Shown here in pieces: positions 9,453-17,792 of a DNA stretch of 64,000 nt. The number at the start of each line of letters is the position of its first letter. Position 1 is the stretch's first letter. Below the pieces are notes generated by a model, which did no database searches, was not told the DNA's origin, and saw nothing but the letters and a program-made list of their open reading frames with translations. The stretch spans positions 124,001 to 188,000 of the forward strand of contig NZ_JACSJI010000001.1 in assembly GCF_014349105.1 (NCBI RefSeq), read 5' to 3'. The stretch comes from Caulobacter sp. 17J80-11. Lineage in GTDB: Bacteria > Pseudomonadota > Alphaproteobacteria > Caulobacterales > Caulobacteraceae. Position numbers and translations under genes: made by a program.

Positions 9453-10103
9453 TCACCACTCGTCGCCGGCGTCCTCAGGCTCGGACGCCGGCGATTCTTC
9501 TTCGCCGAACACCGAGGTCGACTCCGCCGCCGGGCGCAGGGTGGCCCCGCCGGTGCGCGCGTCTTCCTTGGCCTTCTTCTCGGCCGCCTTGCGCACCACG
9601 TCGTCCAGCTCCAGCTGGCTGACCAGGCCCAGGGTGACCGGGTCCACCGGCTTCAGGTTGGCCGCGTTCCAGTGCGTGCGGCCGCGCACGCTCTCGATGG
9701 TGGCCTTGGTGGTGCCGAGCAGCTTGGCGATCTGGGCGTCGGCGACTTCCGGGTGGTGACGGATGAACCAGGCGATGGCGTCCGGACGGTCCTGACGGCG
9801 CGACACGGGCGTGTAGCGCGGGCCCTTCTTCTGGGTCGACTTGGCGAACAGGTCGGCGTGACGGCTGACCAGGGCCTTCATGCGGTAGTTCTCGTCGGCC
9901 TGGGCCTTGTCGAGCTCCTCGCGCGACAGCTGGCCGTTGGCGATCGGGTCGGCGCCGCGGATGTCGCGCGCCACTTCGCCGTCGGCGATGCCCTTCACTT
10001 CCAGCGGGTGCAGCCCGCAGAAGTCGGCGATCTGCTCGAACGAGAGCGAGGTGTTGTCGACCAGCCAGACGGCGGTCGCCTTGGGCATCAGGATCTCGGC
10101 CAT
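9453..10103 (-). CDS. trcR: DUF1013 protein, TrcR-type cell-cycle transcriptional regulator
   Basis: The 216-residue protein begins MAEILMPKATAVWLVDNTSL and contains two helix-turn-helix-like segments. One is FEQIADFCGLHPLEVKGIAD near residues 24-43; the other is DAQIAKLLGTTKATIESVRG near 121-140. This is the DUF1013 family, which is conserved in alphaproteobacteria and annotated as the cell-cycle regulator TrcR. The last 40 residues are acidic and low-complexity. It converges with the small DUF465 gene, with only four bases between stop codons. It appears monocistronic. Confidence 0.85.
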   Translation of the reverse strand: MAEILMPKATAVWLVDNTSLSFEQIADFCGLHPLEVKGIADGEVARDIRGADPIANGQLSREELDKAQADENYRMKALVSRHADLFAKSTQKKGPRYTPVSRRQDRPDAIAWFIRHHPEVADAQIAKLLGTTKATIESVRGRTHWNAANLKPVDPVTLGLVSQLELDDVVRKAAEKKAKEDARTGGATLRPAAESTSVFGEEESPASEPEDAGDEW

Positions 10104-10191: not shown

Positions 10192-10965
10192 CTATAGGCC
10201 GCTTCGTTGCCGAAGGGAACTGCGAACGGCGGTCTTCGCGCGGGAATCCATGTGATTTAACAGGCGTTCGGCGTCCTTCGGGGCGGCGCTCTTCACGTCG
10301 TTGTCGAAGTAGACGTAGGCGTCCAGGCCGCGCTTGCGCCAGGCCTTCAGCCGCCGCGCCCAGTCCGTCAAAGTCTCGTCCGCATACGATCCGACATAGC
10401 GCCCGCTGGAACCGTGGCCGCGGACGTAGACGAAGCTGGCCGTGGCCTCCCAGGGCGCGGGCGCGTGGTGGTGATCCGAGACGCACAGCGCCGCGTCGTG
10501 CGCGCGCAGCAGCTCGAAGACGGCGGCCTCGTACCAGCTGGGATGGCGGAACTCGACGACGCAGCGGCGCCCCTTCGGCAGCAGGGCGAGAAAGCCGGCC
10601 AGTCGCTCGTCGTCGCGCTTCAGGTTGGGCGGCAACTGGAACAGCACCGGCCCGAACCGGTCGCCCAGCCCGTCCATGCGCCCGAAGATGAAGCCGAGGC
10701 TTTCGCCCACGTCCTTCAGCCGCTTGGTGTGGGTGATGAACCGCGAGGCTTTCCAGGCGAACAGGAACCCCTCGGGCGTGCGTTCGCGCCAGGTCGCCAC
10801 CGCCTTTTCGCTGGGGACCCGGTAGAAGGACGCGTTGATCTCGGTCGTGTCGAAGCGGGACGCGTACCAGGCCAGCAGGCCCGCCGCCTTCGTGCCCTCC
10901 GGATAGAATGGGCCGATCCAGTCCTTGTAGGTCCAGCCGGAAGTGCCGACGCGCAGGTCCGCCAT
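10192..10965 (-). CDS. DUF72 (YecE-like) protein
   Basis: The 257-residue protein opens with VGTSGWTYKDWIGPFYPEGT and has the FDTTEINASFYRVPS block. It also carries FAWKASRFITHTKRL and the C-terminal DAYVYFDNDVKSAAPKDAERL, all landmarks of the DUF72 TIM-barrel-like family. Its biochemical role is not established; members are found widely in bacteria. It stands alone between trcR and the redoxin-oxygenase gene, on the same strand as both, with 37 bases separating it from the upstream gene. Confidence 0.9.
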   Translation of the reverse strand: MADLRVGTSGWTYKDWIGPFYPEGTKAAGLLAWYASRFDTTEINASFYRVPSEKAVATWRERTPEGFLFAWKASRFITHTKRLKDVGESLGFIFGRMDGLGDRFGPVLFQLPPNLKRDDERLAGFLALLPKGRRCVVEFRHPSWYEAAVFELLRAHDAALCVSDHHHAPAPWEATASFVYVRGHGSSGRYVGSYADETLTDWARRLKAWRKRGLDAYVYFDNDVKSAAPKDAERLLNHMDSRAKTAVRSSLRQRSGL

Positions 10966-11002: not shown

Positions 11003-12118
11003 TCAGGCGGCCGGCGAGTCGCCTGACCGGTAGGCGCCCACGCCCTCGCCCAGGTGGGCGTTGTTGGCCTCGCGCAGCCTGGCGGCGGCCTCGTCGTAGA
11101 GGAACGGCAGGAAAGCGTAGCGCCGTCCGCGCGTGACGGGAGCCACGGTGTGGAGCAGGCCGCAGCCGAACACCACCGCCCCGCCGGTCGGGGCCTTGTA
11201 CCGGCGCGGGCCGAACTCCGGGAACATCAGCTCCCCGCCTTCGTAGGCTTCGGCGTTCAGATTGATGGTTACGGCGAAACGCCGGTGGGCGGTGCCGGCG
11301 GTGGTGTTGTCGCGGTGCGGGCGGAACCAGCCGCCGGTCTCCCCGTCGTAGCAGGCCACCAGGTGGCGCTCCATGCGGGTCACCTGGAACTGGAAGGCCT
11401 TGGCGATCTCCGGGACGATCCGGCGCTGGATACGGGCCTTGGCCGCCTGGATGACCGCCGCGTCCTGGAGTTCGTGGTCGGTGCGCCGCTTGAAGGCGTG
11501 GTCCAGCACCAGCACGGTCTTGCCGTCGATCTCGCGCATGAAGCCGGAGTCCTGCGCCTCGCCCTGCTCGTAGATCTCGATCAGCCGGCGGCAGAACTCG
11601 GGCTCGAACACCCGGGGCAGGATCAGCACCGGGGCGTGGATCTCGGCCCCGGCGTGGTCCTCCGGGGGCGGCAGGGTGGCCAGCAGGTCCGCGACCGCTC
11701 CGATCCGCTCCAGCGGCGCCCTGGCCAGCACACGCAGCATCGGATCGAGCAGCAGACAGAACGGACGGTAGCCGTCGTCCTCGCCGGCCGCGCCGTAGAG
11801 GCGGCTGACGGCGCGCTCGAAATCCAGGAAGAAGCGCACGCCGGGCAGGCTTTCGACCAGGCGGCCCTGGGCCTGGTCGTCAGGATCGGTGCTGACGCCG
11901 AAGAAGGAGGCCCGTTCGTCGTCGAACAGCGGCCGGCGCGCCTCGACGGCGGCCAGCGCCGCCCGCGCCTCGGCCGAGGCGGCGGAGCCCAGGAAGGCCA
12001 GCACGACGTAGCGGCCCGCGACCGTGTCGAACACGTAGCGAGGGTTGCTGGTCGAGGCGACCCGGAACCAGGGCGCCGGATCGCCAGGGGACAGCGTCGT
12101 GCGAGGATCGGGGCTCAT
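11003..12118 (-). CDS. Fusion of a redoxin-like domain and a 2-oxoglutarate/Fe(II) oxygenase
   Basis: Residues about 8-150 resemble an AhpC/TSA thioredoxin fold (PGDPAPWF, YVVLAFLGSAASAEARAAL, FFGVSTDPDDQA). However, the spot where a peroxidatic cysteine should stand reads SAASAEARA, so the domain is probably not a peroxidase. Residues about 160-345 form a prolyl-4-hydroxylase-type double-stranded beta helix. The iron ligands there are H268 and D270 (PHRDNT) and H323 (LLHTV), with arginines at 330-333 suited to bind 2-oxoglutarate. The protein is 371 residues long, has no signal peptide and should be cytoplasmic. Its substrate is unknown; protein or small-molecule hydroxylation is inferred from the family. 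Confidence 0.85.
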   Translation of the reverse strand: MSPDPRTTLSPGDPAPWFRVASTSNPRYVFDTVAGRYVVLAFLGSAASAEARAALAAVEARRPLFDDERASFFGVSTDPDDQAQGRLVESLPGVRFFLDFERAVSRLYGAAGEDDGYRPFCLLLDPMLRVLARAPLERIGAVADLLATLPPPEDHAGAEIHAPVLILPRVFEPEFCRRLIEIYEQGEAQDSGFMREIDGKTVLVLDHAFKRRTDHELQDAAVIQAAKARIQRRIVPEIAKAFQFQVTRMERHLVACYDGETGGWFRPHRDNTTAGTAHRRFAVTINLNAEAYEGGELMFPEFGPRRYKAPTGGAVVFGCGLLHTVAPVTRGRRYAFLPFLYDEAAARLREANNAHLGEGVGAYRSGDSPAA

Positions 12119-12174: not shown

Positions 12175-12579
12175 CTAAGGCTTGGTGGCCAGCCTGATGA
12201 CGCTGTGGCGCGCGCCGCCGTGGACCGTGAACAGCTCGGCCTGGGCGCCGTCGGGTGAGATCACCAGCACCATGGTGGCGTACTCGGCCCGGCTGGCGCC
12301 GCCGATCGTGTTCGGCTTCAACGTCAGCTCCAGGCCGCCGTCGGCCGTGGGCTTGCGATCGACCACCTTGCCTTCGCTGAACACCGAGCCGCCGTCGCCC
12401 TGCTCGCTGACCGCCAGCGAGTAGGTGCCGTTGTGGACCTCGACGAAGTCGCCGCTTTCCGCTTCCCACGTGCCCTTGCCCGAAGGCTGGGCCAGGACCG
12501 GAGTCGCCAGAAACACTGAAATCAGAAACGCCGCCGCGTGCCGACGAACAAACGCACGCGGATCGCTCGACCGAGCCAT
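12175..12579 (-). CDS. Small exported protein of unknown function
   Basis: The 134-residue product has a signal peptide with a basic start (RRHAAAFLIS), a hydrophobic core and a probable cleavage after VLA near residue 30. The remaining 100 residues are Gly/Ser/Thr-rich with alternating polar and apolar residues (GTWEAESGDFVEVHNGTYSL), suggesting a small beta-rich periplasmic domain. There are no cysteines and no recognised family. It sits between two unrelated genes on the same strand and may be transcribed alone. Confidence 0.75.
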   Translation of the reverse strand: MARSSDPRAFVRRHAAAFLISVFLATPVLAQPSGKGTWEAESGDFVEVHNGTYSLAVSEQGDGGSVFSEGKVVDRKPTADGGLELTLKPNTIGGASRAEYATMVLVISPDGAQAELFTVHGGARHSVIRLATKP

Positions 12580-12653: not shown

Positions 12654-13625
12654 TCAGGCGGTCAGCACGACCTTGCCTACGTGGGTTCCCTCGTCCAGCC
12701 GGCGATGGGCGTCGGCGGCGCGCTCCAGAGGGAACACCGCGTCGATCGGCGGCTTCAGCAGCCCGGCCTCGACCCACGGCCAGACGTGGGCCTCGACCGC
12801 TGCGGCCAGGCGGGCCTTCTCGTCCGGGTCGCGCGCGCGCAGGGTCGAGCCGGTCACGGTCAGGCGCTTGAGCATGATCCGGCGCAGGTCCAGTTCGACC
12901 GTCGCGCCGGCCTGGAAGGCGATCTGCACCAGCCGCCCGTCGGTGTTAAGGCACTCCAGGTTCCGCGACACGAAGTCCCCGCCCACCATGTCGAGGATCA
13001 CGTCGGCGCCGCCGGCCTCGCGCACGGGGGCGACGAAGTCGCTCGCGCTGGAATCGATCGAGAGGTCGGCGCCCAGGCTCTTGGCCCGCGCCGCCTTCTC
13101 CGCCCCTCGCGAGGTGGCGATCACCTTGGCCCCGGCGGCCTTGGCCATCTGGATCGCGGTCACGCCGATGCCCGAGGTGGCGCCATGCACCAGCAGGGTC
13201 TGGCCGGCCTTCAGCCCGCCGCGCTCGAACACGTTGGTCCAGACGGTGAACACGGTCTCGGGCAGGGCGGCGGCGTCGACGTAGGAAAGTTCGTTCGGAA
13301 TCGGCAGGGCGTGGCGGGCGTCGACCGTGGCGAACTCGGCGTAGCCGCCGCCGCCCAGCAGCGCCGTCACCTTGTCGCCGACGCGCCAGCGCACGGCGTC
13401 CTCGCCGACCATGGCCACCTCGCCGGCGACCTCCAGGCCCAGCACGTCGGGGGCGCCCGGCGGCGGCGGGTAAAGCCCCTGGCGCTGCAACAGGTCCGGG
13501 CGGTTCACCCCGGCCGCGTGCACCCGGATCAGGATTTCGTTCGCCTTCGGCCGCGGCACGGGAACTTCGGCCAGGGTCAGGGCCTCGGCCGGGCCCGCGC
13601 CGCCGCGCACCTCGATCGCGCGCAT
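12654..13625 (-). CDS. NAD(P)H quinone oxidoreductase, PIG3-like zinc-independent MDR family
   Basis: Medium-chain reductases of this kind reduce quinones with NADPH. The protein shows an N-terminal GroES-like part (VHAAGVNRPDLLQRQGLYPP) and the Rossmann nucleotide site LVHGATSGIGVTAIQMAKAAG. It ends in the typical RRLDEGTHVGKVVL. The start at 13625 (MRAIEVRGG, 323 residues) is preceded by a GAGG-type ribosome site and matches the family's usual start; ATGs at 13640 and 13670 are weaker. It is divergent from the DUF1192-rcdA pair. Confidence 0.88.
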   Translation of the reverse strand: MRAIEVRGGAGPAEALTLAEVPVPRPKANEILIRVHAAGVNRPDLLQRQGLYPPPPGAPDVLGLEVAGEVAMVGEDAVRWRVGDKVTALLGGGGYAEFATVDARHALPIPNELSYVDAAALPETVFTVWTNVFERGGLKAGQTLLVHGATSGIGVTAIQMAKAAGAKVIATSRGAEKAARAKSLGADLSIDSSASDFVAPVREAGGADVILDMVGGDFVSRNLECLNTDGRLVQIAFQAGATVELDLRRIMLKRLTVTGSTLRARDPDEKARLAAAVEAHVWPWVEAGLLKPPIDAVFPLERAADAHRRLDEGTHVGKVVLTA

Positions 13626-13708
13626 CACCTCAGCCCTCATGCTTGCTTTCCCATTAAGAGCGGGGTTCACATAGGCCTTCGTTCCGGGCCGAGCAAAGAG
13701 GAGGGCGT

Positions 13709-14513: not shown

Positions 14514-16052
14514 CTACGGGCCGAGCGGGGCGGTGACGTCCCGCGCCGTCGCCAGCCGATCGCGGCCCTTCACGCCCATCGCGCGCGCCAGGTCGTCGTC
14601 CCACCCGTAGACGTCGGGCCGGAAGGCCACGCGCCCGTCCGCATCGACGAACACCGTGTGATAGAGCAGCCGCACCGGCACGCTCCGGCCCAGGTCGACG
14701 CGCTCGGTCTTGCCCGACACCAGGGCCGCGTCGAATTCCGCGCCCTTGCCGCTCTCCTCCGCCAGCTCCCGCGCGAACTCGACCGCGCCGTCCACGCGCA
14801 CGCAGCCGTGGCTGAGATGGCGCTCGTTCTCGGCGAACAGGTCCTTGGACGGGGTGTCGTGCAGGTAGATGGAGTGCGGGTTGTCCATGTCGAACTTCAC
14901 CTGCCCCAGCGAGTTCTTCGGGCCCGGCCGCTGGACGATCTGGCCGTCGCGCCAGGACATGCCGTGGCTGCGCAGGTAGCCGCGGCCCTTGGGGGCGATC
15001 TCCTTTTTCGCGATCGAGGCCGGCACCACCCAGGGCGGGTTCACCACCAGGCTGTTGAACGGGGAGCCCAGCGAGGGCGTGGGGTCCTTGGGCCGGCCTG
15101 CCACGACCTTGGCCACATGCACCGGAACGCCGTCGCGCCAGTAGGTCAGGACGGTCGAGGCCGTGTTCACGTCGATGCGCGTCTGCGGGACGACGCGGCT
15201 GAGCCAGCGGCGGCGTTCCAGATTGACCGCGATGCGGGCGGCGCGGTCGCCCGGGCTCTCGGAGAGGGCTTCGGCGGTGTCGTCGCCGATCAAGCCGTCG
15301 GCGTTCAGGCCGTGGTCGGTCTGGAAGCGCGTCACCGCGGCCACCAGATCGGGACCGTAGCTGGCCGGGGCGGGCGCTTGGGCGCCCGACGCGGGCAGAT
15401 AGCCTTCGACCGCCAGGCGGGCCTGCAGGGCGCCCAAGCGCGTGTCGCGGCCGCCGGGGGCAAGCTTCGCGCCGGCCGGCACGCGCGGCCAGTCGCTCGT
15501 CTCGGCGAGCTTGCGGTAGCTCACATAGGCTTCCGACAGGGCCACGTATTCCTTGTCCTGGGGCGCCAGCGAGGCCAGCCATTCGCCGACCTCGCCGCGG
15601 CTCAGGGCGGCGGAAAGGCCGGGGGCGGGGTTCAGCCGGTTGCCGTCCAGCTCCCAGATCGGATTGACCGTGGTCGGATCGACCACGCCCGACGACAGCG
15701 CGCCGGCGTAGGCCAGGGCGGCGCGGGTCAGGCCGACGTCGCGCGCCGCCAGACCGGCCTCGGCGGGCGGGATCAGCTTCAGGTAAGGCGCCGGATCGAG
15801 CCCCTGGCGGTCGGCCTTGCCGATGGCCTCGATGAGGGATGTGGCGTCGGCCTCGGTCCAGGCGGCCTGGTTCTGCCGGGCGGCGTAGAAGCTCCGCACC
15901 GACATCTCCCGCCCCTGCAGGGCGGCTTCCATCTCGAGGGGAGAAAGCGCAGGCGCTGAACGCTCGCCCGACTGGCCCAGGGCGTCGGCGCCGCAGGCGC
16001 TGGTGGTGAAAATCACCGCCGCGCAGGCGGCGTACATCAGGGGACGCGGCAT
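14514..16052 (-). CDS. L,D-transpeptidase (YcbB type) with peptidoglycan-binding domain, copy 1
   Basis: These periplasmic enzymes make 3-3 cross-links in peptidoglycan. The 512-residue protein has a signal sequence with a possible lipobox (TTSAC at 16-20) and a scaffold domain at about 40-200. A putative PG-binding motif LVAAVTRFQTDHGLNADGLIG lies at about 236-256, followed by a YkuD catalytic domain to about 480. The catalytic motif HLSHGCVRVD places the nucleophile at C417, with H398 in YLHDTPSK and H415 nearby. The upstream gene on the same strand, ending at 16146, encodes a paralogue with the same layout, so they look like a tandem duplication. Confidence 0.92.
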   Translation of the reverse strand: MPRPLMYAACAAVIFTTSACGADALGQSGERSAPALSPLEMEAALQGREMSVRSFYAARQNQAAWTEADATSLIEAIGKADRQGLDPAPYLKLIPPAEAGLAARDVGLTRAALAYAGALSSGVVDPTTVNPIWELDGNRLNPAPGLSAALSRGEVGEWLASLAPQDKEYVALSEAYVSYRKLAETSDWPRVPAGAKLAPGGRDTRLGALQARLAVEGYLPASGAQAPAPASYGPDLVAAVTRFQTDHGLNADGLIGDDTAEALSESPGDRAARIAVNLERRRWLSRVVPQTRIDVNTASTVLTYWRDGVPVHVAKVVAGRPKDPTPSLGSPFNSLVVNPPWVVPASIAKKEIAPKGRGYLRSHGMSWRDGQIVQRPGPKNSLGQVKFDMDNPHSIYLHDTPSKDLFAENERHLSHGCVRVDGAVEFARELAEESGKGAEFDAALVSGKTERVDLGRSVPVRLLYHTVFVDADGRVAFRPDVYGWDDDLARAMGVKGRDRLATARDVTAPLGP

Positions 16053-16145
16053 CCTCTACTCGTACAGAACTACCCGTCCTGAACGCGTAGCGTCACGATA
16101 GGTGGCGACCCCTAAGTGAATATCGTCGGAGTCCCAGCGATCGAC

Positions 16146-17792
16146 TTACGGGCCGACGTCGGTCGGGTCCTGCACGGTCGTGCCGCCCGGCAGATAGACG
16201 TCGATGCCCAGAGCTTGGGCTAGCTTGGCGTCGCGCCCGTAGACGTCCGGGCGGAAGGCCACCCGGCCCTGACCGTCGACGAAGGTGGTCCAGTAGAGCA
16301 GGCGCACCGGGATCGAGCGCGACAGCTGAACCCGCTTGGTCTCGCCGGAGGTCTGCAGCTCGTCGAACTGCTGCAGGGCGGTCGGATCCGGCTCCAGCAG
16401 CAGGCGCGCGAACTCGACCGCGTTCTCCACGCGCACGCAGCCGTGACTGCGGTGGCGCTTGGGGCTGGCGAAGGCGCTCTTCGTGGGCGTGTCGTGCAGG
16501 TAGATGGCGTAGGAGTCCTGCAGCTCGAACTTCACCTGGCCGAGCGCGGCGTTCGGCCCGGGGCGCTGCACGACGCGACCGTCCTCGGTCACGTACATGT
16601 TCTCGGCGGCCAGATAGCCGGCGCCCTTGGGCAGGATTTCCTTGGCGGCGATACCGGCCGGGACGTTCCACGGCGGGTTGGCCACCAGCGAGCTGAACTC
16701 CTTCTCCAGGCTGGGGGTCTGGTTGCGGGAGGTGCCCACCACCACGCGGCTGGCGTGGTAGGGCGCGCCGTCGCGCCAGTAGACCATGATGGCCGCGGCC
16801 GTGTTCACCTCGATGCGCTCGGACGCCAGCTGGCGGGGCAGCCAGCGGCGGCGCTCCAGGTTCAGCGCGATCTGGCGGGCGCGGTCCTCGGCGGTGGCGG
16901 CCAGGGCGGACTGGGTGTCGCCCCCGATCACGCCGTCGCCCCCCAGGCCGTGGCGGACCTGGAAGCGCTGGACGGCCTCGACCAGGGCCGGGTCGTAGGT
17001 CTCGACCTCCATCGTGTCGGCCAGGTCGCCTTCCGCCACCAGGCGCGCGACCAGGGCCGGCAGGCGCGGGTCGGCGTCGCCGGGGCGGATCACCGCGCCG
17101 GGCTCGAACTTCGGCCAGCCGCCCTTGGCGGCCAGGTCGCGGTACTTCAGATAGCCGGCCGACAGGTTGGTGTAGCCGAGGTCGCTGGGAGCCAGGCTGT
17201 CCAGCCAGGCGCGCACGCCGTCGCCGTTCAGCGCGGTCTGCAGCCCCGTGGCGCCGTCCAGGCTGTTGCGGCGAAGCTCCCACAGGGTCTCGACCGTCGA
17301 CGGGTCGACCCGGCCCAACGCCAGGGTCTTGGCGTAGAGCAGGGCCGCGCCGGTCAGCCGCGCGTCGCGATCCAGGTCGCGCGTCTTGCCCAGCACCGGC
17401 ACGTAGCTCTTCGGGTCGAGGCCGTGCTTCTGGGCCTCGTTCAGGACCGCCAGCAGCTCGGCCTCGCTGGCCTTGTTCCAGGCGGTCTTGTCCTTGCGCG
17501 CGACGTAGAAGCGCCGCACGTCGGCGGCGACCTCGGCCGGCACCGCCGGCAGGTAGGCGTCGACCGCGGTGCGGGGCAGCGGGACGGGCGGCGCGGGCGG
17601 GGCCTGCGGCACGACCATCGGCGGGGTCGAGGCGGCCGGCCTGGCCGTCGGCGCGGCCGGCTTTAGCGCTGCGGGAGCGGGCTGGCCCGCCGGCGCCGGA
17701 GCCCGGCTCTGCGACTGGCTTTGGGCGTGGGCCGTGCCGGCGACGAGCGCGGCGGCGGCGCTTGAGATCAGAAGCGCTCGGATCATTCCCAT
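16146..17792 (-). CDS. L,D-transpeptidase (YcbB type) with peptidoglycan-binding domain, copy 2
   Basis: The 548-residue product has a cleavable signal peptide (AHAQ near residue 23). A Pro/Ala-rich linker spans about 30-75 and is lacking in copy 1; it probably spans part of the periplasm. The scaffold domain, the PG-binding motif LVEAVQRFQVRHGLGGDGVIG and the YkuD domain follow in the same order as copy 1. The catalytic HRSHGCVRVE gives C452. The segments NLERRRWL, NPPW-V-P and IYLHDTP are nearly identical in the two copies. The 93 bases between the genes contain no obvious terminator, so cotranscription is possible. Confidence 0.92.
   Translation of the reverse strand: MGMIRALLISSAAAALVAGTAHAQSQSQSRAPAPAGQPAPAALKPAAPTARPAASTPPMVVPQAPPAPPVPLPRTAVDAYLPAVPAEVAADVRRFYVARKDKTAWNKASEAELLAVLNEAQKHGLDPKSYVPVLGKTRDLDRDARLTGAALLYAKTLALGRVDPSTVETLWELRRNSLDGATGLQTALNGDGVRAWLDSLAPSDLGYTNLSAGYLKYRDLAAKGGWPKFEPGAVIRPGDADPRLPALVARLVAEGDLADTMEVETYDPALVEAVQRFQVRHGLGGDGVIGGDTQSALAATAEDRARQIALNLERRRWLPRQLASERIEVNTAAAIMVYWRDGAPYHASRVVVGTSRNQTPSLEKEFSSLVANPPWNVPAGIAAKEILPKGAGYLAAENMYVTEDGRVVQRPGPNAALGQVKFELQDSYAIYLHDTPTKSAFASPKRHRSHGCVRVENAVEFARLLLEPDPTALQQFDELQTSGETKRVQLSRSIPVRLLYWTTFVDGQGRVAFRPDVYGRDAKLAQALGIDVYLPGGTTVQDPTDVGP

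Follow-up and report, generated by a model that had tools for sequence, protein, structure and literature searches.

PiuC-type oxygenases are associated with the uptake of iron and are not known to act on a particular protein. The solved members of this group, PiuC/YbiX (PDB 9qn0-9qn4, 9ghl and 3dkq), have the same fold as the oxygenase half of the fusion protein described here and give its best sequence match, yet their chains of 225-243 aa are too short to hold a redoxin half. The HIF prolyl hydroxylase PHD2 also shares this fold, with the HxD...H and Arg layout seen in the fusion, but is of low identity and has another N-terminal region; to our knowledge, HIF is absent in bacteria. The active site of peroxiredoxins comprises a peroxidatic Cys within a PxxxT/SxxC motif together with an Arg. 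The 1-Cys peroxiredoxin AhpE and Bcp/PrxQ have the same fold as residues 8-152 of the fusion, in which, however, the Cys, Thr and Pro are replaced and the Arg is not conserved. PPHD (4iw3), described in an excerpt of PMC7864055 as a Pseudomonas prolyl hydroxylase acting on EF-Tu, is bacterial and single-chain and has the same oxygenase fold; unlike the fusion, its 201-residue chain contains no redoxin domain. Collagen P4H with PDI pairs a prolyl hydroxylase with thioredoxin-fold domains, as does the fusion, but according to excerpts of PMC9676403 the collagen enzyme consists of two chains joined via cysteines, whereas the fusion is one chain whose redoxin half is without conserved cysteines. 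We found no description of this fusion in the open-access papers searched, although subscription papers may hold an earlier mention.

Results

The fusion gene lies in a 64,000-nucleotide stretch of the genome of Caulobacter sp. 17J80-11 (NZ_JACSJI010000001.1, positions 124,001 to 188,000), here called the window. ORF calling and translation place a 371-aa ORF on the minus strand at window positions 11003..12118, encoding a pseudo-peroxiredoxin followed by an Fe(II)/2OG oxygenase. It has a 95% identical orthologue in Caulobacter sp. 17J65-9, the closest homologue among the best 80 of 355 loci, and a 62% identical paralogue in the same genome (L179; G000:C26:77944-79044). This paralogue adjoins a large ORF, RTX-like in appearance, whose repeats are rich in glycine and aspartate. 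At the locus itself the fusion stands in a row of genes on one strand, running from a zinc-binding alcohol dehydrogenase (12654-13670) and a 134-aa protein without a Pfam match (12175-12579), through the fusion, to a DUF72 protein (10192-10965) and TrcR (9453-10103). Elsewhere in the window, at 14514-17792, two YkuD L,D-transpeptidases carrying scaffold and peptidoglycan-binding domains lie next to each other and probably arose by tandem duplication.

A family profile matched 199 ORFs. Of these, 176 distinct ones (query included) aligned over at least 300 profile positions, and this two-domain layout is common to all 176 full-length homologues; rows with fewer than 300 positions, including six distant ORFs in which the profile did not cover the redoxin half, were excluded before this count, and members without a redoxin domain would hence be under-counted.

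Residues 160-345 (11084..11641, minus strand) are assigned to the prolyl-hydroxylase/PKHD-type oxygenases by Pfam, by a sequence match to PiuC and by fold matches. Pfam 2OG-FeII_Oxy_3 (PF13640) matches residues 254-339 at 44.8 bits against a cut-off of 27 (E 2.5e-11) and is matched in 51/53 close members at E 0.01. The best sequence match of this half among solved structures is PiuC (E 2.6e-7). The NCBIfam models for PKHD hydroxylase PiuC/YbiX (PRK05467 equivalogs) scored 44 against a cut-off of 143 and 34.8 against 180 bits, and further PiuC/YbiX models likewise fell below cut-off (31.6 against 336 and 31.4 against 399 bits). An AlphaFold2 model built on 53 aligned sequences has a mean pLDDT of 92.1 and a pTM of 0.88 for the two domains together. 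By VIA-align, its oxygenase half superposes on the algal P4H 3gze, solved with peptide (Z 19.4, rmsd 2.4 over 175), on PPHD 4iw3 (Z 18.9, rmsd 3.0 over 184), on PHD2 (Z about 17.5, identity about 13-16%) and on PiuC 9qn4 (Z 17.1), and Foldseek concurs on the fold. Residues ~160-345 are predicted from this model to adopt a prolyl-hydroxylase/PKHD-type Fe(II)/2OG oxygenase fold.

The residues expected at an iron centre are retained throughout the family. The codons of H268-R269-D270 (11309..11317, minus strand) specify the HxD iron ligands, and H, R and D are each present in 176/176 rows. The distal ligand H323 (codon 11150..11152, minus strand) is found in 175/176, with Leu in the remaining row, and R333 (codon 11120..11122, minus strand), which from its role in related enzymes would bind the C5-carboxylate of 2OG, in 176/176. 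The preliminary description of this gene, made from the letters of the DNA, had named H268, D270 and H323 as an intact triad beside basic residues for 2OG. This stands, as does its residue numbering, although it had not named the strand, and the predicted structure places the triad within a prolyl-hydroxylase fold, which speaks against a misassignment. Three cysteines of this half also recur. C176 is Cys in 175/176 rows, and may be a structural residue that P4H-type folds commonly have. C319, four residues ahead of H323, is Cys in 164/176 and Ser, Gly, Ala or Thr in 12, and C256 is Cys in 133/176 and Arg in 27; C256 and C319 both fall within window 11150-11353.

The N-terminal half presents a fold of which the chemistry appears to have been lost. 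Residues 8-152 (11663..12097, minus strand) are identified as a peroxiredoxin-fold domain without catalytic residues by Pfam AhpC-TSA, which matches residues 11-117 at 31.6 bits (cut-off 26, E 1.8e-7), and by the AlphaFold2 model. The nearest solved structures by sequence are Bcp-type peroxiredoxins, and the modelled half superposes on AhpE 5id2 (Z 17.1, rmsd 2.2 over 142) and Bcp (9a4d chain B; Z 17.6, rmsd 2.5 over 142). Residues ~8-152 are thus modelled as a peroxiredoxin (AhpE/Bcp-like) fold. A phmmer alignment to the PDB peroxiredoxins 2ywn and 3hjp, in which the relevant residue is Cys and a deposited Ser respectively, puts A51 (codon 11966..11968, minus strand) at the position of the peroxidatic Cys, in line with the column counts given below. 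Within the stretch GSAASAEARA, which starts at residue 44, G44 and S48 take up the Pro and Thr positions, and the active-site positions of the query therefore read G44/S48/A51/R118, with no peroxidatic Cys. The sole Cys of the redoxin half is C121, and just 4/120 homologues have Cys at that column, showing that there is no conserved resolving Cys. The absence of both cysteines, as originally proposed, is borne out, and judging from its residues the redoxin half should be unable to act as a thiol peroxidase.

The loss extends across the family. At the A51 column of the 176 rows we counted Gly 49, Ala 46, Ser 20, Val 10, Thr 8 and Cys 8, the rest being other residues or gaps; the peroxidatic Cys is thus missing in 168/176 homologues. 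At the other peroxidase positions the expected residue is found in 16 (Pro), 21 (Thr/Ser) and 78 (Arg) of 176 rows, and Cys51 together with Thr/Ser48 in none (0/176). The fold residues of this half are kept, with G12 in 175, G35 in 173, D99 in 172 and R129 in 164 of 176. A local loss or sequencing error was ruled out, as the Cys is missing not only in these homologues but also in the 95% orthologue and the in-genome paralogue. In the host genome, seven of nine AhpC-TSA matches keep the catalytic Cys, and the two without it are the fusion and its paralogue. The eight Cys rows are scattered: a 126-row tree needs seven label changes to accommodate them, of which well supported branches force at least five; four of the eight belong to one seven-row clade of Caulobacteraceae, the window's own family. 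We also rejected an ancestral Cys retained in one clade, since the scatter of these rows and their lack of Thr/Ser fit better with chance or secondary gain. A copy in the planctomycete Zavarzinella formosa (L094), 56% identical, has Cys at the peroxidatic column. On the residue counts, the pseudo-peroxiredoxin appears to be an old, family-wide trait and not a local loss. Accompanied by the retained triad and Arg and by models of both folds, this gives good support to the preliminary picture of a dead redoxin on a live oxygenase, in which the activity is inferred.

Across 15 close pairs, Nei-Gojobori dN/dS (one pair having saturated dS) was 0.06-0.30 for the redoxin half and 0.03-0.22 for the oxygenase half, and it was higher in the redoxin half in 14/15 pairs. 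Mean pairwise identity over 4000 sampled pairs was 31.7% for the redoxin half versus 53.1% for the oxygenase half. All 176 rows occupy at least 106/136 redoxin columns, and Pfam AhpC-TSA is recognised in 52/53 close but 33/59 distant members (E 0.01). The substitution rates show that the redoxin half is under purifying selection, and they disfavour its neutral decay. Constraint of this looser kind is what would be expected of a structural or binding module. Moreover, its faster evolution, together with the 26/59 distant members without an AhpC-TSA match, means that the job of the redoxin half may differ between subfamilies.

The fusion is widespread in Alphaproteobacteria. It was matched in 84/385 genomes of an alphaproteobacterial draw (E 1e-20) and in 13/299 genomes of a phylum-wide draw at 1e-15, all 13 being Alphaproteobacteria. 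A scan of named genomes, of which the best 80 of 355 loci were retained, gave hosts including Caulobacter, Azospirillum, Roseomonas relatives, Methylorubrum, Microvirga and Rhizobium, and a single planctomycete, the above Zavarzinella formosa. Some genomes hold several copies. Annotated plasmid records label full-length copies just '2OG-Fe(II) oxygenase'. Homologues in phage records (11 records) are all PiuC-like over ~20% of the query, and structure matches in BFVD added nothing on the redoxin half. The sole contig of the viral collections with a full-length relative (L220; 53% identity) is 5 kb long and may derive from a bacterium. At another locus (L235:1-6097) a fusion copy directly adjoins, and shares its strand with, phage genes for major head, scaffolding and tail fibre proteins.

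No conserved operon partner was found beside the fusion, either in 79 named loci or among the nearest genes in 185 loci. Genes for the alcohol dehydrogenase and TrcR were each met again by the fusion in nine of the loci fetched, in keeping with kinship, and neighbour blocks common to Microvirga or to Caulobacteraceae track kinship too. An apparent cluster of HlyD neighbours proved to be a mixture of response-regulator and sensor genes that single linkage had brought together. In eight loci (L039, L088, L100, L136, L138, L186, L187 and L188) the fusion has ECF sigma and/or anti-sigma-like genes no more than two genes away, frequently co-directional and separated by short gaps. Pfam confirmed the sigma factor in 4/4 of the ECF loci tested, and zf-HC2 matched weakly in 2/4 of the anti-sigma-like proteins tested outside L058; L058 itself, a candidate ninth locus, was discarded as doubtful with no Pfam match. 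Twelve genomes contain 8 to 18 Sigma70_r2 matches each, and the chance of ECF adjacency is estimated at ~1-2% per locus, a figure uncorrected for kinship and duplicate loci. We regard this neighbourhood as a weak lead only. In three Caulobacteraceae loci a gene of ~700 aa with an FkbH domain (HAD-IIIC) adjoins the fusion (L223:8013-10088, L224:5417-7543 and L238:2968-5094), with a TPR protein flanking the fusion on its opposite side in L224.

Discussion

We propose, with a probability of roughly 0.6, that the fusion is a PHD/P4H-like protein or peptide hydroxylase carrying a non-catalytic redoxin module that serves as a scaffold or in holding a substrate, partner or subunit. The oxygenase half, presumed active and cytosolic, would bind Fe(II) by H268/D270/H323 and 2OG by R333, and would hydroxylate a protein or peptide. 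A protein substrate is our leading guess because most of the enzymes sharing the fold hydroxylate proteins (P4H with peptide, PPHD with EF-Tu, and PHD2). The redoxin half, devoid of redox chemistry, would pack on the oxygenase as a scaffold or docking surface and could help to hold a substrate, partner or second subunit; recruitment of a partner or substrate through this half is possible. For a prolyl hydroxylase with a thioredoxin-fold partner, collagen P4H with PDI (excerpts of PMC9676403) sets a precedent, albeit one in which cysteines make the contact. Counting against this reading, PiuC-type relatives are tied to iron uptake, no conserved neighbour gene names a partner, and the redoxin half evolves faster and lacks an AhpC-TSA match in 26/59 distant members.

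In an alternative, the protein is a PiuC/YbiX-like enzyme whose substrate is a small molecule, e.g. an iron chelator, and not a protein. Its top sequence matches, in solved structures and in NCBIfam alike, are PiuC/PRK05467, and the Niveispirillum copy lies 2.4 kb from a TonB-dependent receptor gene. However, the NCBIfam scores are far under their cut-offs (at best 44 against 143 bits) and receptor genes were not among the recurring neighbours seen, and we consider a small-molecule substrate unlikely. In Niveispirillum, sigma-factor, FecR-domain and toxin-antitoxin genes stand between the fusion and the receptor gene. A stronger competitor, though itself doubtful, is that the redoxin half serves solely for dimerisation or solubility, the part that PDI plays for collagen P4H, and has no say in substrate choice. 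Peroxiredoxins commonly dimerise, and the conserved residues of the redoxin half are mainly of the fold type. According to excerpts of PMC9676403, the collagen P4H catalytic domain has a thioredoxin-fold PDI subunit as its working partner, and constructs are insoluble when truncation disturbs the contact between the two; in the same excerpts, however, the contact uses PDI cysteines, which have no counterpart in the fusion.

The preliminary description had also raised the sensing of peroxide. By way of the redoxin's own thiol this is unlikely, because no Cys is conserved there. A version in which oxidation of C319 and C256 switches the oxygenase, with a genuine peroxiredoxin or thioredoxin signalling to it through the redoxin half, draws on the conservation of C319, C256 and C176 (164, 133 and 175 of 176). 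Nevertheless, C176 may be the ordinary structural Cys of P4H-type folds, C319 is replaced in 12 rows and C256 by Arg in 27, and with a relay half lacking any conserved Cys we judge such a switch improbable. Least probable of all, in our view, is that the redoxin half no longer has any use and persists as the decaying relic of a fusion. The loss of its catalytic residues and its faster evolution relative to the oxygenase half would suit a relic, but dN/dS is well below 1 in 15/15 pairs and the redoxin is kept in 176/176 rows, poor-coverage rows having been excluded beforehand.

Going beyond the protein hydroxylase with a non-catalytic redoxin module, it is conceivable, but a long shot, that the pseudo-peroxiredoxin presents a thioredoxin-fold client or real peroxiredoxin, or an ECF-linked stress regulator, to the hydroxylase, such that oxygen and 2OG set a stress response. 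If true, this would represent an oxygen-dependent pathway of protein modification in Alphaproteobacteria. Few substrates are known for bacterial PHD-type protein hydroxylases, and the redoxin half could be used as bait for a substrate or partner. Moreover, AhpC/TSA matches arising from this fusion architecture should not be counted as peroxidases, and the family would clearly exemplify how a redox enzyme fold can be retained after its chemistry was lost.
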